Shown: positions 27,339-37,318 of the stretch, piece after piece | How positions within the stretch are numbered: the stretch's first letter is position 1 | Layout of the letters: each line of letters opens with the position of its first letter | NCBI RefSeq assembly: GCF_004339765.1 | Contig: NZ_SMGO01000002.1 | Location: forward strand, 904,001 to 968,000 | DNA from: Albibacterium bauzanense | Lineage (GTDB): Bacteria; Bacteroidota; Bacteroidia; Sphingobacteriales; Sphingobacteriaceae | Direction of reading: 5' to 3' | Length of the DNA stretch: 64,000 nt | The notes under the pieces: generated by a model | What the model saw: only the letters and a program-made list of their open reading frames with translations | Databases searched by the model: none | What the model was told of the DNA's origin: nothing | Program-made: the position numbers and the translations under genes

Positions 27339-28064
27339 ATGCTACACAAAACCAGAGGAATTGTATTAAGAACAATTAATCACCGTGAAACCAGTGTGAT
27401 CTGCCAAATATTTACTGAAAGTTTTGGTTTGCAATCCTATATAATCAATGGTGTTAAAAGGAATAGAGCAAAAATACATATCAATATTTTGCAGCCCTTA
27501 CACTTGTTAGATTTAGTAGTTTATCATAAGAATTCAGGCGGAATACAACGTGTTTCTGAAGCCCGGCAACTACCGATCTTTCAAAGCATACCTTACGATG
27601 ATAAGAAACGATCGCTTGCCATCTTTATCACCGAAGTTCTTCAGAAATGTTTAAAGCAACAAAGTGCTGATGAACCACTTTTTGAATATATCTATTATGC
27701 TGTTTCCTGGTTAGACAGTACACCTGAGGTGTCTCCTAATTTTCATCTTTACTTCTTAATCAGGCTAAGTAAGTTTATGGGTTTCTACCCGGTATTGCCT
27801 ACTAAAGGCAATCAAACTTATTTCGATTTAAAAGATGGAGTGTTTTGCAATTTCCCTCCCTATCACCAATTTTTTTTAGCAGATAAAGAAACTCAACAAT
27901 GGATAAATCTGATGTTGAGCTCCTTCAATGATATTTATTCCTTGCAGATCTCTTTACAAGACAGACGGGTTTTATTAAATCATATTCTGGATTATTATGC
28001 CCTGCATATCGAGAATTTTGGAAATATAAAATCACATTATATATTAGAAGAAGTGTTTAGTTAA
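27339..28064 (+). CDS. recO: DNA repair protein RecO
   Basis: Recombination mediator that helps load RecA on SSB-coated DNA. 241 residues: an N-terminal OB fold (KTRGIVLRTINHRETSVICQIFTESFGLQSYIINGVK) and a helical C-terminal part. No zinc cysteine cluster is present. The ATG at 27339 follows the kinase stop directly. It converges on the ATP-grasp gene with 4 bases between stops and no clear terminator. Confidence 0.92.
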   Translation: MLHKTRGIVLRTINHRETSVICQIFTESFGLQSYIINGVKRNRAKIHINILQPLHLLDLVVYHKNSGGIQRVSEARQLPIFQSIPYDDKKRSLAIFITEVLQKCLKQQSADEPLFEYIYYAVSWLDSTPEVSPNFHLYFLIRLSKFMGFYPVLPTKGNQTYFDLKDGVFCNFPPYHQFFLADKETQQWINLMLSSFNDIYSLQISLQDRRVLLNHILDYYALHIENFGNIKSHYILEEVFS

Positions 28065-28068
28065 GCTC

Positions 28069-29055
28069 TTAAACAATTTTTCTTTCCATTGCTTTAATAA
28101 CGGGTTCAAAAAAATCTACACCATTTAATCTTCCCGCATTCCCCAAGCCACCCGGGCTAAATACATTAACTTCCATTAGTTTATCCCCTACAATATCTAA
28201 TCCTGTTAAAAACATGCCATCCTTAATAAGTTTGGGTGCAACCTCTTCTACAATCTCATAACAGCGTTTTGTTAGTTTGGCAATTTTAGCAACTCCACCC
28301 TGATGAATGTTACTTCGGATGTCATTTTCTGCTTGAGTGCGATGCAATGCAGCAGTTTTACCATTAACAACAATGGGCTGCCCATCTAAAAGAAACAATC
28401 GTATGTCTCCTTTTTTTGCTTCTGGTAAATATTCTTGTGCCACCACAAATCCATCACGAGCAATCGCTTCTACTATCTGATTCAAATTTTTAATATCATT
28501 CTTTATCATAAACACATTCTTTCCCCCCGAACCCTGTAAGGGTTTTAAAATAATGTGTTTATTCCGATCTTTATAAAAAGCTTTGATATCCTCAATATTT
28601 CGTGTAATAATTGTTTCCGGCCTTACAGTTTTCGGGAAATATTGGAAATACATTTTATTTAAAGCATTAGCCAATGTATTCGGATCATTTAAAACGACAA
28701 CACCATGTCTTTGAGCTAATTGTCCAAATACAATACCCGCATTTTGAGCCCAAGGCCGGCGATCAAAGTCAACAGAAGGATCGTTTCTAAGCATAAGAAT
28801 ATCCAATTCTTTTGCGGTAACAAGTTCTTTTTGAGTTTTCTTTATTGCTTCAAGAAAGTTTTCATTGGTGCGATATTGTTTGTCAGGGCCCTTACGAGCA
28901 TGTGCTCCCATCTGTTCATCTTTCATATAAGCGAGGTCGCCTGCACCGATATAATAAATTTCATGGCCCATTTTCATGGCTTGCATGGCTAAGCCTGTTG
29001 TTGTATACGCAGGTATTTCCTTAGGGGTTTGATTTACTACAAATCCTATTTTCAT
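28069..29055 (-). CDS. GshB-like ATP-grasp ligase
   Basis: 328 residues with the prokaryotic glutathione-synthetase layout. N-terminal domain MKIGFVVNQTP with LMLRNDPSVDFD and VLNDPNTLANALNKMYF, then the ATP-grasp core: ILKPLQGSGGKNVFMI (about 168-183), VAQEYLPEAKKGDIRLFLLDGQPI, the GKTAALHR and EVNVFSPGG elements. A ligase joining an amine to a carboxylate is expected. True glutathione synthesis would also need GshA, which is not nearby. The two upstream genes (QEGLA metallopeptidase, amidohydrolase) suggest a different, peptide-like substrate. It is the last gene of that cassette, 28 bases after its neighbour. Confidence 0.85.
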   Translation of the reverse strand: MKIGFVVNQTPKEIPAYTTTGLAMQAMKMGHEIYYIGAGDLAYMKDEQMGAHARKGPDKQYRTNENFLEAIKKTQKELVTAKELDILMLRNDPSVDFDRRPWAQNAGIVFGQLAQRHGVVVLNDPNTLANALNKMYFQYFPKTVRPETIITRNIEDIKAFYKDRNKHIILKPLQGSGGKNVFMIKNDIKNLNQIVEAIARDGFVVAQEYLPEAKKGDIRLFLLDGQPIVVNGKTAALHRTQAENDIRSNIHQGGVAKIAKLTKRCYEIVEEVAPKLIKDGMFLTGLDIVGDKLMEVNVFSPGGLGNAGRLNGVDFFEPVIKAMERKIV

Positions 29056-29083
29056 TGTTGTTTCTTTAAGTTAAGGTGTTTAA

Positions 29084-30928
29084 TTAATGCTTGATCAAAT
29101 TGAAAACATTTCCTCCTGATCGAATGTTTTCGATTCTAGATTCATATTTTTTGTCTAAATAGCGAGGCTTTATAGGAATTTTAGCCAATATCTGCCGATG
29201 GATTAACTCTTGTACCACCGGGATATAATCTTGCCTGATTTTACCGATTAACAGAGGTTCAATACTTTTACCTTTCTTGATGTATTCAATAATGTTGAGT
29301 AATCCTTTTAAATAAACGGCATCTTTTGTTAAACCACCACCTCTATAAACACGCATGGTGATAGTGAAAGCAGCTTTATTGCTAAATTGGTATTTATCTA
29401 CCAAAACATAAAAGGTGTCTATAAAAGAACTGCCTGATATCATTTGTTGCACAGCAATAACCCGGGCAGCAATGGTTCGTAAACGATTAGGCGTTAAACC
29501 ATCGGTCAGGTACTCTGAAAAAACAGCCAGTCCTTCCTGTAATTCTTCATAACCGGGAACACCTATATAAAACAGCTTTAATGGTTGGGCCTTACCATTA
29601 TAATAAGTTACTACATGGGTACCTATCTCATGCTGTAAAAGAGAAAAGGCCCTGCCTTCAGATACCTGAAAGCTTTTATTGATATTTAATGTTCCCCGAT
29701 TAACCAAAATGCCGTCAATATCATCCCTGATCCGAACGGCAGTTGAAATATTCGGGTCCTGTAACTTCAGCCATTCTAATTCCTTTTCGGCCATTTTTGC
29801 GAATTCAGGAGCTTTTATCATTTTTTTTTCAGGAGGTTCTTCCGGCACATCAATAGCTACTAAAAGAGCTTTCGCAGTTTCCAATAATTTCTCATCAATC
29901 GGCCCAAATAGCTGCATGCTGGTAAGCAAAAAATCAGGTTTCTCACGCTCCATCATCATATCCAGCATTCTATCAACCTCTTTTCTTTTATCCCGAAAAA
30001 GAAAAGCCAGCGTCGGATCAGAGATATCTTCGATCGGTAAATTATAAAGTTTTCTTTTGACTAATTCAGGGTCGATAGGCATCGGCCTATAATGAAAGAT
30101 CGGAGGTTTTAAGTAATTCGATTTTTGAAAAGCCAGCCAGGCATCGTCTACATTAATAGGCGTAATCAATAACAGGAAATCAAAAAGATTGCTGCAATTA
30201 CCTAGCTCTTCATCAATATCAAATACATTTTTCTCCAGACTGGTGGTTCCCAGCATTTGAAAATTACTAGCATTATATGAGGTATGTATTCTAACAAACT
30301 CAAAGAAACCTTTGCGAATAGCCTTGCTGAATTTTGAACGCAGATCTCTTAAGAATAGCGGGTAAGCCCTGCCGGTAGAAACATTCATATAAATAGGTGC
30401 AATTTCAAGCCCTATAAGTGTTATTGCTGATTTATTAGCGTCTTTGTCATTGATTAAAGGTTTATAATAGGGGGGAGCAACTACATTTTTACCCTTGTTT
30501 ATTTCCGTTCGCATAGAACTGCCAAGGATGTTGATCTTACCAAGTTCATCTTTCAGTTTCTGAGCTACTTCCAATCCGCTTTTTTGACTTACATGAACTG
30601 TAAATGGAATGGTTTCTTCTTTTTCAGAGAGCCAAACTTCGAATAATAGAAATCCTTTAAACTGATCAGATAAATAGGTCGCAATACTCTTAACTACTTC
30701 ACTACATTCTGGACAGTCTTCTGCATAGAGATAGGAAGATTCCGTTTTGCCCAATCTCGATGTAAAGCCATCTTTTCCATTCGGAGGAATTCTGTAAACC
30801 ACCATAAAAGGCACAGGTTTCTCCATATTAACTAAACCATTACCGGGAATATTAATTCGTAGAGGTTCCTTCTTTTTAATTTTATCCAGAATCCGATTAA
30901 TTACTTTCTTCTCAGGAGTAGTTATCAT
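29084..30928 (-). CDS. QEGLA-motif zinc metallopeptidase-like protein (DUF1704/MATCAP family)
   Basis: 614 residues, soluble, no signal peptide. The C-terminal half has the putative zinc site HEIGTH (433-438) and QEGLA (464-468), the hallmark of the flavohemoglobin-expression-modulating QEGLA family (PF08014), related to the eukaryotic tubulin-carboxypeptidase MATCAP. H433, E434, H438 and E465 are the likely ligands and base. The N-terminal part (to about 370) is family-specific, with a CPEC pair near 72-75. Bacterial substrates are unknown. It overlaps the upstream amidohydrolase by 4 bases (ATGA), so the two are translationally coupled. Confidence 0.9.
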   Translation of the reverse strand: MITTPEKKVINRILDKIKKKEPLRINIPGNGLVNMEKPVPFMVVYRIPPNGKDGFTSRLGKTESSYLYAEDCPECSEVVKSIATYLSDQFKGFLLFEVWLSEKEETIPFTVHVSQKSGLEVAQKLKDELGKINILGSSMRTEINKGKNVVAPPYYKPLINDKDANKSAITLIGLEIAPIYMNVSTGRAYPLFLRDLRSKFSKAIRKGFFEFVRIHTSYNASNFQMLGTTSLEKNVFDIDEELGNCSNLFDFLLLITPINVDDAWLAFQKSNYLKPPIFHYRPMPIDPELVKRKLYNLPIEDISDPTLAFLFRDKRKEVDRMLDMMMEREKPDFLLTSMQLFGPIDEKLLETAKALLVAIDVPEEPPEKKMIKAPEFAKMAEKELEWLKLQDPNISTAVRIRDDIDGILVNRGTLNINKSFQVSEGRAFSLLQHEIGTHVVTYYNGKAQPLKLFYIGVPGYEELQEGLAVFSEYLTDGLTPNRLRTIAARVIAVQQMISGSSFIDTFYVLVDKYQFSNKAAFTITMRVYRGGGLTKDAVYLKGLLNIIEYIKKGKSIEPLLIGKIRQDYIPVVQELIHRQILAKIPIKPRYLDKKYESRIENIRSGGNVFNLIKH

Positions 30929-31716
30929 AACCGATTGTTTCTTAGTGCATTCAGTTGATGTTTTAGGATAGGTATTGAGCCAGATAAAGCTCCTCTGATG
31001 TCTTGCAAGTGATTAATAAAGACTCTGCCTGTCCATTCATCCATAAAAGTTTTCTTAAACTCAACAGATATAACGCAGCCTTCTTCGCCGAAATTATGAT
31101 TAACCCATTGAGAGAAGCCACCACCTTTAAACACAATATTCTCTCGTACATCTGGATGCCTTCCATTGATAGTACAGGCAGAAAGATATTGCATAAAATG
31201 ATGAATAATGGGTTGCCACTTTGGATGGTTGTTTGCAGAACCTATGTTGATTTCAGGATTATAAATATCCGGACTTGCTATACCCGGACCTTCTCTGCGG
31301 TAATTATAAGAATGGATATCCAAGATCAGGAAATACCCAAACTTGCGGATGGCTGTTTCAATCAGTTCGCTTATTCTTACATAGAACTCCTGATAATATT
31401 CCATTAAAGCACTGCCTAGAATTTCAGGAAATCCGTCTTTCCAAACCTTTAAACCCCAGGCATCTTCAGGAACCATATAAATAGCCTTATCTGGGGGACG
31501 GTTTAAATCGACTTGAAAACGTGAAGTATGAACTGTAACCCTGCTTACAGGCAGGTCTATTATATAGGCCGTATACGGATCCTCTTCGCGAAAACGTTCA
31601 TGTTCCTGAAGGTGAATATGTGGTAAAACCTCAGGCGCTATAAAATGTCCGTCATGCAAGGCAACGGCTATTATAGGTGAGTCTATTTCTGCAATTTCGT
31701 ATGTTGTGCTATTCAT
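30925..31716 (-). CDS. N-formylglutamate amidohydrolase-family protein
   Basis: 263 residues. It has the FGase family (PF05013) metal-site layout: ALHDGHFIAPE with H21 and H24, RFQVDLNRP (66-74), and DIHSYNYRREGP with H135. In histidine breakdown the family hydrolyses N-formylglutamate, but no hut genes are here. It heads a three-gene cassette with the QEGLA metallopeptidase and the ATP-grasp ligase, so an amide-cleaving step on a peptide or amino-acid adduct is more likely (inference). A perfect 18-bp palindrome lies 6 bases before its ATG. Confidence 0.87.
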   Translation of the reverse strand: MNSTTYEIAEIDSPIIAVALHDGHFIAPEVLPHIHLQEHERFREEDPYTAYIIDLPVSRVTVHTSRFQVDLNRPPDKAIYMVPEDAWGLKVWKDGFPEILGSALMEYYQEFYVRISELIETAIRKFGYFLILDIHSYNYRREGPGIASPDIYNPEINIGSANNHPKWQPIIHHFMQYLSACTINGRHPDVRENIVFKGGGFSQWVNHNFGEEGCVISVEFKKTFMDEWTGRVFINHLQDIRGALSGSIPILKHQLNALRNNRL

Positions 31717-31796: not shown

Positions 31797-33158
31797 TTAA
31801 AAGGATAAAACCTTCTCCGGAAACCTCTCTGCATAGTTATAGATTAACTGCATAATATAATGGGTAGCAGGGTATCGCTTGATGGATTCTTTAGCATCTG
31901 CAATACTTTTTATATCTGAGTATTGTTCAATATATCCAAAACCATATGAACATCCTTTTTCTATCCAAATACAGCTTTGCTCTTCTTCATTTCTCCCTTT
32001 ATCTAAAATTATAAAAGAGTGCATAGTAAGATGCAAATGTTCAATAGCACTTTGTACCCGATCATTATATGCTGCCGGAGGTAATTTATTAATTCCTATC
32101 TCAGGCTCTTTAACTTCTGATCCAATCCCAATAGCTGATTTAAATCCGCATAAATCAGGACGTAATTCAAAGTCGCGAATCATTTTGAAAAGTAAATTAA
32201 GAGCTTCAGTCTTTAAATTGAACGTATGAATATTCTCCAGCCCCTTTTTATGATTACCAACTTCGAGGTGTAGATAGCCGCTTTGATCCTCATAGGAATA
32301 AAGAGCAAATTTAGGCTCTTGTCGTTTAATGGCTTTATTAAATGCAGGCCATAAACGTTTAATTTCTACTGCTTCAAGCAAGAGGGCCATTAGTTCAGTA
32401 CCACAAGCTTCATAATGAATGGAGTGGATACTCCGTAGAAAATGTTGGCGTTGCGGTTTAGGATTATGGCCTGTAAAATGAGAAGAAACCCTTTTGCGGA
32501 TGTCTTTTGCTTTACCTACATATACAACCTTTCCTGTTTGATCTTTGAAATAATATACTCCCGGACAATGGGGCAGCTTTTCAAAATCTTTATGTGGCAA
32601 ATTGGGCGGTAGTTGTTGCTCCTTTGATTTTTTGCCCAGCATAGTAACAATATGCCCTTCTGTATCCCATTCAAGCAAACGAGAAAAAAGAATCGCTGTG
32701 GCCTGGGCATCTCCTTCAGCGCGATGACGGTCTGTCAATGGTATTTTTAATGCATCGCAGAGTTTACCCAGACTATAGGATTGCAGTCCCGGTTTTATTT
32801 TACGGGTTAAGCGTACCGTACAAAGTTTTTGAGCATTAAAAGTATATCCTGCACGTTCAAGGTGATGCTTGATGAAGGAGTAGTCAAAATTTACGTTATG
32901 TGCCACAAACACACGACCTTCTAAAACTTTATAGATTTGTTCTGCAACTTGTCCAAAATCAGGACTATCGTAAACCATATCATCTGTAATTCCGGTCAAT
33001 GCCTGAATATAAATTGGTATCGGAACTTTCGGATTAATTAAAGTCTGATAACGATCTATAATCGCTTTTCCATTATGTATCAAGATGGCAATTTCAGTTA
33101 TACCACTTCCTGATGCATAACCGCCTGTTGTTTCTATATCTACAATTGCATATTCCAT
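31797..33158 (-). CDS. DEDDh exonuclease fused to GIY-YIG nuclease (DnaQ-UvrC/Cho-like)
   Basis: 453 residues from the ATG at 33158; an ATG at 33182 would add eight but overlap dnaE by 20. Residues 1-165 are a DnaQ-type 3'-5' exonuclease with VDIETTGG (D7, E9), HNVNFD (D92) and HRAEGDAQAT (H145, D150). Residues about 195-270 are a GIY-YIG nuclease domain: LPHCPGVYYF then VVYVGKAKDIRKRVSSHF. The remaining C-terminal part is of unknown fold. Such fusions resemble the E. coli repair nuclease Cho with a proofreading-type exonuclease. It is 4 bases from a DnaE-type polymerase gene and is last in that cassette. Confidence 0.88.
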   Translation of the reverse strand: MEYAIVDIETTGGYASGSGITEIAILIHNGKAIIDRYQTLINPKVPIPIYIQALTGITDDMVYDSPDFGQVAEQIYKVLEGRVFVAHNVNFDYSFIKHHLERAGYTFNAQKLCTVRLTRKIKPGLQSYSLGKLCDALKIPLTDRHRAEGDAQATAILFSRLLEWDTEGHIVTMLGKKSKEQQLPPNLPHKDFEKLPHCPGVYYFKDQTGKVVYVGKAKDIRKRVSSHFTGHNPKPQRQHFLRSIHSIHYEACGTELMALLLEAVEIKRLWPAFNKAIKRQEPKFALYSYEDQSGYLHLEVGNHKKGLENIHTFNLKTEALNLLFKMIRDFELRPDLCGFKSAIGIGSEVKEPEIGINKLPPAAYNDRVQSAIEHLHLTMHSFIILDKGRNEEEQSCIWIEKGCSYGFGYIEQYSDIKSIADAKESIKRYPATHYIMQLIYNYAERFPEKVLSF

Positions 33159-33162
33159 TGTC

Positions 33163-36105
33163 TTATTCACTTCTTGGGTCACTTAGCATGGGCATCCGGG
33201 CACATTTCTGTACTTCAAGAGACGGGCATCCAAAATCAATAGTTACTTTTCCAAGAATCAAATATAAACCATTACCATTTAAAGGATAAGATTTTAAAGA
33301 TTGTGGGAAATGCACTGTGTCAAAAAAACGACCTTCAGCATCCAGGAAAGTACCAAACTTCATATTACTTACATTTCTTGACCGAACTTTCTTTTCAGCA
33401 ATGAAATCGCCGACCATGCGCACAGTTTTACCTTCATATTTGCAAAGATCTTTTGCCATTACTTCTCCTCTAAAGCTGGATCTCGCTAAATCGAACATGG
33501 TAGCTGAAATAGGAAAACCAATCAGTTCCATCTCATCATACATATCTTCCAGAAGCGAGCTCTCTAATTTAGGTAATACAGGTTGTTTTGTGTTAAGAGT
33601 TTCAAATAAGGTTGCCGTGCCTGCTTTTTGCTGTTTCCCGCTTATTAGCAAGTGTGCTTCCCATAATAGCTCTTTCTTTCCTGTTCCTGTAAATCGAAAA
33701 GCGCCGCAACGAATCAGCACGACCAGTTGTTCTAATCCTGCCCCGGTTCGCAATATAAAGTTCTCTAAACTCCGGTAATTTCCATTCTGTTTTCGCTCAT
33801 CAATGATTCTAAGTGCCAGCTTTTCTTCTAAGTTCAGCAGACAATCAAATCCCAGATAAATGTCCTTGCCGTCAATACTGGTATTGTATTTACTTTTATT
33901 TACGCAGGGTAAACAAATCGTGCCGCCTGAATTCCTTGCTTCATTTACATATACTTTTCGTTGGTAAAATCCACCATAGTTATTCAGTACAGAAACCATA
34001 AACTCCAGTGGAAAATAGGTTTTTAAATATAAACTTTGGTAACTTTCTACTGCAAAAGAAGCTGAATGTGCTTTATTAAAAGAGAAACCTGCAAAACTTT
34101 CCATCTGCCGCCATATCTCTTGAGAGATATCTTCCGGATAACCCATTTCCTTACAATGATGAAAAAACTTACGATGAATATCCTTCAGGTCGTCTTCATA
34201 GTGCTTTTTTCCACTCATCATTCTCCGCAATGTATCAGCATCTGCTAAATCCAAGCCACCAAAATAATGACCGATTTTCATCACATCTTCCTGATACACC
34301 ATTACTCCATAGGTTTCTTCAAGTTGCTCTTTAAAAACAGGATGCATATATTCTACCTTCTCAGGATCATGATGCCTTTCGATATAAGTTTTCATCATGC
34401 CGCTGGATGCCACGCCTGGCCGAATAATGGATGAGGCTGCAACCAGTACCCGATATTCATCACATTTTAATTTGGTCAGTAACTGGCGCATAGCCGGGCT
34501 TTCAATATAAAAACACCCAATGGTATTAGCAGTTTTTAATTGATGCGCAATCTTCTCATCCTTAAAGAAACGTTGAGGGTCATTTGTTTGAATGCGTAAC
34601 CCTTGATTTTGAAAAACAATCTCCCTGCAATCCTTGATATGGCCAATGCCTCGCTGAGAAAGAATATCAAACTTTTCAAATTTAATTTCCTCAGCAACAT
34701 ACATGTCGAATTGTATAGTAGGCAGGCCTTTAGGAGGAAAGTCCAGAGCCGAATAATAACTAAGAGGCTTCTCTGAAATCAATACACCCGAGGCATGAAT
34801 GGTTCGCTGGTTTGGAAAATCGGCCATCTGATCATAGACACTCAAGATCATATTCGTGATCTCGTTTTTATTGAGCATATGCTGTGGCTCATGCACCAAT
34901 CTGTCAATATCACTTCTGGGCAATCCGTATACCTTTCCCAATTCCCGAATGATAGACCGTGAACGAAATGTACTAATGGCACCCATTAATGCTACCGTAC
35001 CCTTTTCATATTTATCAAAGATGTAATTATAGATCTCATCCCGCTCGTTCCAGCTAAAATCTATATCAAAATCGGGTGAAGTTTTCCGCTTGGGATTTAA
35101 AAAGCGCTCAAAATAAAGATCCAGTTCAATAGGACAAACATCAGTAATACCCAAACAATAGGCTACTACAGAATTGGCGCCGCTTCCTCTTCCCACATAA
35201 TGAAAATTACGAGAACGTGCATGCCGGCAAATATCATCTGTAATCAGGAAATAGGACGCAAAGTTTAAATTTTCAATGATCTCCAATTCTTTCAAGACCC
35301 GAGCCATAGCTACTTTATTGTTTTTTCCATAGCGCCGTAGAAAACCTTCCATTGCATATTGATGTAGCAATTGATTATCTTCATAGCGGCTACTTCTAAA
35401 GTTCTCTTTATTTTTAACCTCTTCGAAGTTGAAACTGAAAGAGCATTCCTGCAGTAAATTTTCCGTATTACGGATCAACTGCGGAAAATCTTTATAAAGT
35501 TGCAGTAAAGCTGCTTTGGATATTAGTACTTCATCTGCTGCAGCAATTTGGTTGGGTTTCAATTGAGAAATAAGAAGATTATGATCTATGGCCCGTAATT
35601 GCCGATGCAGCAAGTGTGCCTGTTCATCCTGAAAGCTAAGCGGTTTTAATATCACATAACGCTGATATGCAGATGAGGGCCCCAGCGCTATCCGGTTTAA
35701 TTGATCCGGGCGAACACCAATATACTCATAATCACGAAGAGGGCTGATAAGTTGCTTTCCATAGGGGTAAACTACAAAAACATGATTAAACTCAGGAGCT
35801 ACAAAGGGTAGGAGTGAGTTTTTCTTATTAGCTGCTGTCATGAGCTCATTAAGCTCTTTAAAACCTTCTTCATTTTTTGCAATGCCAATAAATAGCAGCT
35901 CATCAGCATTGCGGAATTCCATTCCCACCAATCCGTTTAAGCCTCGTTTTCTGCACTCTTTGATAAACGCCAAGGATGCTGAACTATTATTGATATCTGT
36001 CAGGACAGCTGTACCATAGCCATTTAAAAGCAAACCTTCTACCAGTTGCTCAATACTTAGCGTGCCATAGCGCAAGCTATAATAGCTATGTACATTTAAT
36101 AGCAT
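33163..36105 (-). CDS. dnaE2: Short DnaE-type DNA polymerase III alpha subunit (error-prone type)
   Basis: 980 residues, shorter than replicative DnaE (about 1160). N-terminal PHP domain (NVHSYYSLRYG, then LTDINN at 36-41 where most PHP domains have TDH, so that metal site is altered). Palm residues PDFDIDF (344-350) and FDIL (D480) are intact, so polymerase activity is expected. Helix-hairpin-helix and OB-fold regions follow (OB about 865-965). Neighbouring dinB-like and exonuclease genes, and the short length, suggest the translesion DnaE2/ImuC-type rather than the main replicase; that symbol is by context. It overlaps the dinB-like gene by 10 bases. Confidence 0.85.
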   Translation of the reverse strand: MLLNVHSYYSLRYGTLSIEQLVEGLLLNGYGTAVLTDINNSSASLAFIKECRKRGLNGLVGMEFRNADELLFIGIAKNEEGFKELNELMTAANKKNSLLPFVAPEFNHVFVVYPYGKQLISPLRDYEYIGVRPDQLNRIALGPSSAYQRYVILKPLSFQDEQAHLLHRQLRAIDHNLLISQLKPNQIAAADEVLISKAALLQLYKDFPQLIRNTENLLQECSFSFNFEEVKNKENFRSSRYEDNQLLHQYAMEGFLRRYGKNNKVAMARVLKELEIIENLNFASYFLITDDICRHARSRNFHYVGRGSGANSVVAYCLGITDVCPIELDLYFERFLNPKRKTSPDFDIDFSWNERDEIYNYIFDKYEKGTVALMGAISTFRSRSIIRELGKVYGLPRSDIDRLVHEPQHMLNKNEITNMILSVYDQMADFPNQRTIHASGVLISEKPLSYYSALDFPPKGLPTIQFDMYVAEEIKFEKFDILSQRGIGHIKDCREIVFQNQGLRIQTNDPQRFFKDEKIAHQLKTANTIGCFYIESPAMRQLLTKLKCDEYRVLVAASSIIRPGVASSGMMKTYIERHHDPEKVEYMHPVFKEQLEETYGVMVYQEDVMKIGHYFGGLDLADADTLRRMMSGKKHYEDDLKDIHRKFFHHCKEMGYPEDISQEIWRQMESFAGFSFNKAHSASFAVESYQSLYLKTYFPLEFMVSVLNNYGGFYQRKVYVNEARNSGGTICLPCVNKSKYNTSIDGKDIYLGFDCLLNLEEKLALRIIDERKQNGNYRSLENFILRTGAGLEQLVVLIRCGAFRFTGTGKKELLWEAHLLISGKQQKAGTATLFETLNTKQPVLPKLESSLLEDMYDEMELIGFPISATMFDLARSSFRGEVMAKDLCKYEGKTVRMVGDFIAEKKVRSRNVSNMKFGTFLDAEGRFFDTVHFPQSLKSYPLNGNGLYLILGKVTIDFGCPSLEVQKCARMPMLSDPRSE

Positions 36106-37271
36106 CTTTTCTCTTTCCTTTGAACTTCTTCCTTCAAACTTACTGCCCGCATAATTTTATCGGTACCAAAGTGCATTCTGATATAATCCATGGCTACACC
36201 CAGATTCAGTTCCTTAATTCCATCATCAAATAAATCTACCTGATGACTTCCTGCTATCAGATTACTTAGTTTAACTCCAACAAGTCGTATCAGCATCCGA
36301 CGGCTATATAGTTTATCAAACAGTTCCAGTACCCGTTCTGTCAATATTTTCTCCGAATTCGTATACGTGATTTTCATTTGTCTGGTATGCGTATCGAAAT
36401 TACTATAACGTATTTTTAAGGTGATACAAGCAGTTAATTTTCCCTCTTTACGAAGATTGAAAGCCAGCTCGTCGATCATGGTGATAAGAATTTTTCGCAA
36501 TAGAGTCATCTCAATGGTATCTATTTCGAAAGTATGTTCGCTGCTCATCGACTTCTGCTCTGAAAAGGGAATTACAGGTGCATTGTCTAAGGCATTGGCT
36601 TTCTTCCAAATACTTACTCCATTTTGTCCCATTACCCGATGCATCGTCTGCACTTCCATTTCCTGTAAAGTTCTGATCTTTGAGATCCCCATATTCCGTA
36701 ACAGTGTATAAGTTTTTGCACCTACCATCGGGATCTTTTTAATAGAAAGAGGTGCCAGAAAGCTTTTCTCAGTACCCGTTTCTACTTGTCGCTCACCACT
36801 TGGTTTAGCGGTTCCGGTAGCGATTTTACTTACCGTTTTATTAATAGAAAGTCCGAAAGATATGGGTAAGCCGGTTTCTTTAATAATCCGCTGCCTGAGT
36901 TCCTGAGTCCATTTCCAACAGCCAAAAAACTTATCCATCCCTGAAACATCCAGGTAATGTTCATCAATGCTGGCCTTTTCAACAATGGGTGCTCTCTCAG
37001 AAATAATTTCAGTTACCATGGCCGAGTATTTGCTGTACTGATCCATATCGCCTTTTACCAGAATAGCTTCCGGACAAAGTTGTCTGGCTAAGCGCATAGG
37101 CATGGCACTATGCACTCCGTATTTTCTTGCCTCATAGCTGCAAGATGCCACTACACCGCGATCTGAACTTCCGCCAATCAATACAGGCTTATTTATCAAT
37201 TCAGCATTCTGCAGTCTTTCAACCGATACAAAGAATGTATCCAGATCACAGTGTACAATATGCTTTTCCAT
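36096..37271 (-). CDS. dinB: Y-family DNA polymerase (DinB / Pol IV-like)
   Basis: 391 residues from the ATG at 37271, which puts the conserved HIVHCDLDTFFVSVE right at the N-terminus; the ATG at 37298 would add nine. Catalytic acidic residues: D9 and D11 region in HCDLDTFF and the SIDEHYLD motif (about 102-109; H where most DinB have A). Little-finger domain about 240-345. QVDLF near the C-terminus is a canonical beta-clamp-binding motif. First gene of a cassette with the short DnaE and the exonuclease/GIY-YIG protein, suggesting coordinated translesion synthesis. Upstream is a small inverted repeat. Confidence 0.93.
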   Translation of the reverse strand: MEKHIVHCDLDTFFVSVERLQNAELINKPVLIGGSSDRGVVASCSYEARKYGVHSAMPMRLARQLCPEAILVKGDMDQYSKYSAMVTEIISERAPIVEKASIDEHYLDVSGMDKFFGCWKWTQELRQRIIKETGLPISFGLSINKTVSKIATGTAKPSGERQVETGTEKSFLAPLSIKKIPMVGAKTYTLLRNMGISKIRTLQEMEVQTMHRVMGQNGVSIWKKANALDNAPVIPFSEQKSMSSEHTFEIDTIEMTLLRKILITMIDELAFNLRKEGKLTACITLKIRYSNFDTHTRQMKITYTNSEKILTERVLELFDKLYSRRMLIRLVGVKLSNLIAGSHQVDLFDDGIKELNLGVAMDYIRMHFGTDKIMRAVSLKEEVQRKEKRCY

Positions 37272-37318
37272 AATTTCTTTAGCAAAGCTACGAATCATTA
37301 GTTCATTTAGCTAACAAT

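Follow-up and report, generated by a model that had tools for sequence, protein, structure and literature searches.

The three-gene cassette

Within a 64,000-nucleotide stretch of the genome of Albibacterium bauzanense (Bacteroidota; contig NZ_SMGO01000002.1, positions 904,001 to 968,000), hereafter the window, lie three adjacent genes encoding an FGase-like amidohydrolase (FGA), a MATCAP/QEGLA zinc peptidase (QEG) and a GshB-like ATP-grasp ligase (LIG). Their layout as given in the initial annotation, namely three minus-strand genes of which the first two overlap by 4 bases and the third follows after 28 bases, was confirmed at every position (Table 1). The three genes are one functional unit that is inherited together, and they almost certainly represent a single unrecognized pathway which makes and unmakes a small peptide, and not the glutathione of the database labels.

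Table 1. Genes, domains and motifs of the cassette, in window coordinates.
Feature	Position	Strand	Description and basis
FGA	30925-31716	minus	263 aa; stand-alone, apparently active FGase-family amidohydrolase (predicted from sequence and model)
QEG	29084-30928	minus	614 aa; two domains, decayed FGase-like and MATCAP/QEGLA zinc peptidase
LIG	28069-29055	minus	328 aa; GshB-like ATP-grasp carboxylate-amine ligase, NF009110/PRK12458 subfamily
QEG residues 1-255	30164-30928	minus	putative catalytically dead FGase-like domain; hhalign, Foldseek, alignment
QEG residues 266-595	29144-30133	minus	MATCAP/QEGLA metallopeptidase domain; PF08014, profile search and Foldseek
HEIGTH zinc motif, QEG residues 433-438	29615-29632	minus	alignment of 24 homologues
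QEGLA motif, QEG residues 464-468	29525-29539	minus	alignment of 24 homologues

Conservation and co-inheritance

A scan of a genome collection with QEG returned 26 loci in Bacteroidota, Planctomycetota, Chloroflexota and an unclassified metagenome-assembled genome, and in 25 of them FGA, QEG and LIG follow one another in the same order and on the same strand. The same gene order, often with the 4-base overlap retained, is found on plasmids and chromids of Rhizobiales, and rearranged or fused forms occur in other Bacteroidota and in Vibrionaceae. Only Bacteroidota were evenly sampled. Among 396 Bacteroidia genomes the peptidase is present in 21 and the NF009110 ligase, called at matches of at least 394 bits (the next genome's match scored 215 bits), in 20, all of them within the 21; no genome has the ligase without the peptidase, and a single one (G186, with a distant short peptidase) has the peptidase without the ligase (Fisher p 9e-33, related genomes not being fully independent). 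Across 48 loci the pairwise distances of the three proteins are correlated with one another (Mantel r 0.78-0.91). The possibility that the three genes are rarely neighbours elsewhere, which the initial annotation had named as speaking against its own proposal, is contradicted by these 25 loci, by the rhizobial plasmids, by eight fusions and by the co-occurrence.

Clustering of 678 flanking open reading frames (ORFs) gave no fourth conserved partner, every family being confined to five lineage groups or fewer; the most widespread of these families are, by appearance, generic transporters and response regulators. Two further neighbours are lineage-specific. In three flavobacterial cassettes a mercaptopyruvate-sulfurtransferase-like rhodanese lies between the ligase and the FGase (L060 11316-12137, L071 10638-11480, L073 5802-6641), and in Pararhizobium an MnmC-family methyltransferase directly follows the ligase (L029 10976-11656), such a methyltransferase being apparently in frame with the ligase at L030, a locus with frameshifts. 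In the window itself, a recO-like gene convergent to the cassette ends at 28064, and a minus-strand cluster at 31797-37298, on the same strand as FGA and ending 80 bases upstream of it, encodes two polymerases, one of the IMS family (Y-family) and one of the DnaE type with 980 aa, together with a nuclease that fuses RNase_T and GIY-YIG; this cluster looks like an SOS translesion cassette.

The amidohydrolase and the peptidase

Family score (PF05013, 4.9e-20, 73.1 bits against a gathering score of 28.9), fold and catalytic histidines all place FGA among the FGases. Its AlphaFold model, with a predicted local distance difference test score (pLDDT) of 90.8, finds the FGases 2q7s (6.8e-14) and 2odf as structural matches, with metallocarboxypeptidases as the next neighbours behind them. 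The histidines initially described as intact are conserved across 24 aligned homologues, H21 and H135 being invariant and H24 present in at least 90%. Assignment as HutG of histidine degradation was considered and rejected, the protein reaching only 23 bits against TIGR02017 (cut-off 278.75). Enzymes of the FGase and AstE/AspA families strip N-acyl groups off Glu/Asp-type amino acids.

The peptidase domain of QEG belongs to the MATCAP family by its PF08014 score (2e-89, 300.6 bits, gathering score 27) and by its two motifs, which had been reported as intact and proved to be invariant or nearly so across 24 homologues, H433, E434, G436, T437 and H438 of HEIGTH and the whole of QEGLA being the same in 24 of 24. 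Against the QEGLA-family model TIGR02421 it scores 325.7 bits, narrowly under the cut-off of 338.65, the Photobacterium fusion described below reaching 459.9. The relationship to MATCAP proposed from the motifs is borne out by matches to human MATCAP1 in a profile search (7z5g, 4.1e-7) and in Foldseek (7z6s_C, 4.9e-8). MATCAP relatives (TMCPs) cleave off C-terminal Tyr and Glu (PMC10499314).

As judged from alignments and the predicted structure, the N-terminal part of QEG (about 260 residues), which previously had no family assignment and went unremarked in the initial annotation, is a decayed and catalytically dead FGase domain. The alignment of this region matches that of FGA (hhalign, E 3.8e-6, probability 87%), and in Foldseek the AlphaFold model of the whole protein (pLDDT 86.9) finds the FGase 2q7s (prob 1.00, E 0.02). 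In the alignment it shares its scaffold with type-B and fused FGases but has lost their catalytic His motifs, with RIPP where they have HDGH and EVWLSE where they have DIHSYN. Type-B FGases also have an N-terminal extension similar to the one in QEG. The simplest history would be that the long QEG arose by fusion of FGase and MATCAP, and that its FGase half died once a separate FGase took over; the dead domain probably persists as a scaffold, either for docking the active FGA or for presenting the substrate.

The ligase and the glutathione question

LIG matches the Pfam families GSH-S_ATP (6.5e-52) and GSH-S_N (2.6e-11) as well as the RimK domain (2.8e-16), and it passes NF009110/PRK12458 with 419.8 bits (cut-off 408). 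ATP-grasp ligases build an amide bond. With E. coli GshB (1gsa, 3.2e-40) LIG has in common the fold and the ATP-grasp core, and the ATP, catalytic, metal and most other residues of that enzyme are kept, including R86, N283 and S286 (S/T). However, it forms a separate subfamily, failing the curated glutathione synthase equivalogs TIGR01380 (215.7 against 299.05 bits) and NF003573 (224.9 against 272), and it is even farther from the RimK model TIGR00768 (80.3 bits, cut-off 143.4), so that it stands closer to GshB than to RimK. In all 16 aligned ligases T288 of GshB is replaced by G and E292 by a residue other than E, with SPGG in place of SPTC; T288 and E292 belong to the gamma-Glu-Cys site in the mutagenesis literature.

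The lack of gshA near the cassette proved to be understated by the initial annotation, as neither of the gamma-Glu-Cys ligase families PF04107 and PF04262 is present anywhere in the host's own 99%-complete genome. PF04262 was absent from all 41 genomes examined, 20 of which bear the cassette or its peptidase, and GCS2 was found in 7 of 29 peptidase-bearing genomes, that of the window not among them. A complete cassette is present on pSymB of Sinorhizobium meliloti 2011 (L083), and a mutant of the chromosomal gshB (SMc00419) in this strain contained no glutathione (GSH) by high-performance liquid chromatography (PMC7063052), which means that the cassette ligase supplies no GSH there, unless it is unexpressed. 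Since the host lacks gshA, the curated cut-offs are missed and the Sinorhizobium gshB mutant has no GSH, LIG is not an ordinary GshB, and the outcome feared in the initial annotation, a ligase making ordinary glutathione, did not materialize. Glutathione synthesis as the principal explanation was rejected on these grounds and on the loss of T288 and E292.

Variants of the cassette

The order seen in the window, FGA followed by a long QEG and LIG (version a), occurs at 37 loci. In Flavobacteria the order LIG'-FGA'-short QEG (version b, 6 loci) is accompanied in most cases by an upstream SDF-family symporter with GltP as its best NCBIfam match. Eight loci, two of them in Photobacterium, have LIG' followed by a single FGase-MATCAP fusion protein (version c), in which Pfam places both domains in one ORF and the FGase is intact, and two are hybrids with two ligases (version d). 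In version e, found in the genomes G053, G273, G352 and G452, QEG and LIG have near them an enzyme of the AstE/AspA family (PF24827), and searches of all four whole genomes found no homologue of FGA. The PF24827 enzyme adjoins the ligase in three of the four, on the same strand in two, and lies 3 kb downstream in G452; within the stretches read it occurs in none of 53 FGA-bearing cassettes. This swap of FGase and AstE/AspA at one position of the set suggests that the chemistry concerns N-acyl amino acids, the third activity being probably the hydrolysis of an N-acyl (acidic) amino acid, and the versions together define an invariant set of an FGase/AspA-fold hydrolase, a MATCAP peptidase and a GshB-like ligase.

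Solitary peptidases were also encountered (L023, L069, L072, L076 in Pseudoalteromonas, L077 in Legionella, and phage Y1). The one of Pseudomonas phage Y1 (L082 5001-6122, OQ572403, an unverified record) is a short QEGLA/MATCAP peptidase of 26% identity, and phage carriage of the cassette was dismissed, this single peptidase being all that was found. On plasmid 9 of Legionella adelaidensis (L077 4591-7865) the solitary peptidase is located between dapA and the glutamate racemase gene murI, a context from which a link of the short type to D-Glu/diaminopimelate peptides is possible.

Expression of probable cassette genes

In Photobacterium damselae at low salinity, A0J47_RS17020, annotated as "GshB", was 38-fold up and the QEGLA gene A0J47_RS17025 was 27-fold up (PMC10308900). 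The order of these locus tags matches the LIG'-fusion arrangement of Photobacterium (L074, L075), which suggests that they are the cassette and that the induced "glutathione synthetase GshB" is probably its ligase and not a glutathione synthetase. An exact EcfG-type promoter (GGAAC-N16-CGTT) precedes the cassette of S. meliloti (-333) and overlaps its start in Shinella, and it is absent in the other rhizobia checked, which is only suggestive of general-stress control of the rhizobial cassettes.

Possible function and alternatives

We tentatively propose, at a likelihood somewhat short of even, that the cassette runs a make-and-break cycle of an N-acylated, likely Glu- or Asp-containing small peptide, analogous to the mammalian N-acetylaspartylglutamate (NAAG) cycle. 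LIG would use ATP to couple a carboxylate with an amino acid, in the manner of GshB and RimK. QEG, as a MATCAP-type zinc peptidase, would take the C-terminal residue back off, and FGA, or the AstE/AspA-type enzyme of some lineages, would rid the freed acyl-amino acid of its N-acyl group, be it formyl, acetyl or succinyl. Such a cycle is favoured by the three activities together with the FGase-AstE/AspA exchange, and it is consistent with the conserved gene order, with the co-occurrence of QEG and the ligase, with the correlated distances of the three proteins, with the retention of all three activities in other gene orders and fusions and with the flavobacterial symporter. We infer the substrates, their small size (as opposed to protein tails) and the direction of the cycle. 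Of the adduct pathway put forward in the initial annotation, the adduct there being an amino acid or a peptide, the unit is thereby upheld by conservation and co-occurrence, the chemistry of the adduct being still a matter of inference.

Several observations weigh against this cycle. In one Vibrio locus no ligase adjoins the FGase-peptidase fusion, so that a neighbouring ligase can be dispensed with in some cases; the FGase and AspA folds are also near the M14 carboxypeptidases, and FGA could therefore be a second carboxypeptidase and not a deacylase; the zincin fold of QEG is unlike that of glutamate carboxypeptidase II; the Mantel correlation among the three proteins is in part a product of shared species history, loci within genera not being independent; and the literature gave no substrate, product or biochemical data for bacterial members.

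The same enzymes could instead act on protein tails, LIG adding Glu, Tyr or Gly to a protein C-terminus or side chain, QEG removing it and FGA trimming. QEG being a true MATCAP homologue, the RimK domain in LIG, the metallocarboxypeptidases among the structural neighbours of FGA, the tubulin TTL/MATCAP/CCP enzymes as a likeness and the RimK/RimB precedent on ribosomal protein S6 (PMC11957791) all fit this explanation, but no conserved gene for a substrate protein lies beside the cassette, where neighbours vary by lineage, LIG is closer to GshB, and the FGase is swapped for AstE/AspA, whose families act on small N-acyl amino acids; we therefore regard it as unlikely, though worth keeping in view. 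The cassette could also serve the salvage or catabolism of an N-acyl peptide that is imported or comes from the environment, LIG acting on a breakdown product with no rebuilding of that peptide. This would account for two of three enzymes being hydrolases, for the adjoining symporter, for the patchy distribution and for the Vibrio fusion; it appears rather improbable, however, given that the near-perfect co-occurrence of ligase and peptidase suggests a central ligase.

Turnover of glutathione or gamma-glutamyl-cysteine, in which LIG would be an additional glutathione synthetase and the two hydrolases would degrade or recycle the peptide, would agree with the database name of NF009110 ("glutathione synthetase"), with the GshB residues kept in LIG and with the production of GSH by some hosts, rhizobia among them. 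The scarcity of gamma-Glu-Cys ligases in the genomes examined, the missed equivalog cut-offs, the replacement of T288 and E292 and the S. meliloti mutant stand against it and make it highly improbable. Finally, the window cassette does sit amid unrelated genes (the polymerase cluster, recO-like and ileS-like genes), but mere chance or housekeeping neighbours lacking a functional link are already refuted by conservation across phyla, fusions and co-occurrence, and the likelihood of this is next to nil.

Relation to known systems

Glutamate carboxypeptidase II is an M28 enzyme. In the mammalian NAAG cycle it acts together with NAAG synthetase (RIMKLA/B) and aspartoacylase, and these are the same three activities as proposed for the cassette; the synthesis and cleavage steps of NAAG have been described (PMC8836185). 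The proposed counterpart of aspartoacylase in the cassette is usually of the FGase family, as in the window, and AstE/AspA (PF24827) in four cassettes. The cassette differs in that its ligase is GshB-like and not RimK-like, its peptidase is a MATCAP zincin and its enzymes are clustered in one operon. It may work like the NAAG cycle but is not a member of it, the ligase and peptidase families being different.

A PF08014 peptidase is likewise paired with an ATP-grasp ligase in the tubulin enzymes MATCAP1/TMCP1 and TMCP2 with TTL/TTLL, whereas the cassette is bacterial, carries a decayed FGase domain fused to its peptidase, has an FGase as partner and has no tubulin substrate. N-acetylglutaminylglutamine amide (NAGGN) osmolyte genes encode a ligase, an amidotransferase and an M42 peptidase, and are likewise a self-contained peptide ligase and peptidase cluster for an N-acylated dipeptide; the cassette has neither the GNAT-ligase nor the asparagine-synthetase-like amidotransferase, and its peptidase is another one. 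RimABK, which glutamylates S6, also combines an ATP-grasp ligase with a protease able to undo or regulate its product, but LIG falls under the RimK cut-off and the Rim protease is of another class, retropepsin-like (PMC11957791).

Implications

No account of the module, nor of an FGase joined with an ATP-grasp ligase, was found in the open literature searched (subscription journals and preprints lay outside the search), which agrees with the initial view of an undescribed system. The families are known singly, and ligase-plus-peptidase modules are already known in RimABK; relative to the literature searched, the module and its proposed chemistry are new. Its product could conceivably be an undescribed and widespread N-acyl peptide of low molecular weight, a solute for storage, osmotic or redox purposes and perhaps a glutathione stand-in where gshA is lacking, osmotically responsive, made by a mis-annotated "glutathione synthetase" and unmade by a carboxypeptidase of the MATCAP type together with a deacylase of the FGase/aspartoacylase type; we consider this possible but doubtful.

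If the proposal holds, the NF009110 "glutathione synthetase" subfamily and the "flavohemoglobin expression-modulating QEGLA" family would both have been misread, an example being the salinity transcriptome in which the induced ligase was treated as GshB (PMC10308900). The bacterial relatives of the tubulin-trimming MATCAP would gain a genetic context, partners and a testable chemistry, and an unknown peptide metabolite would be indicated for organisms without glutathione.

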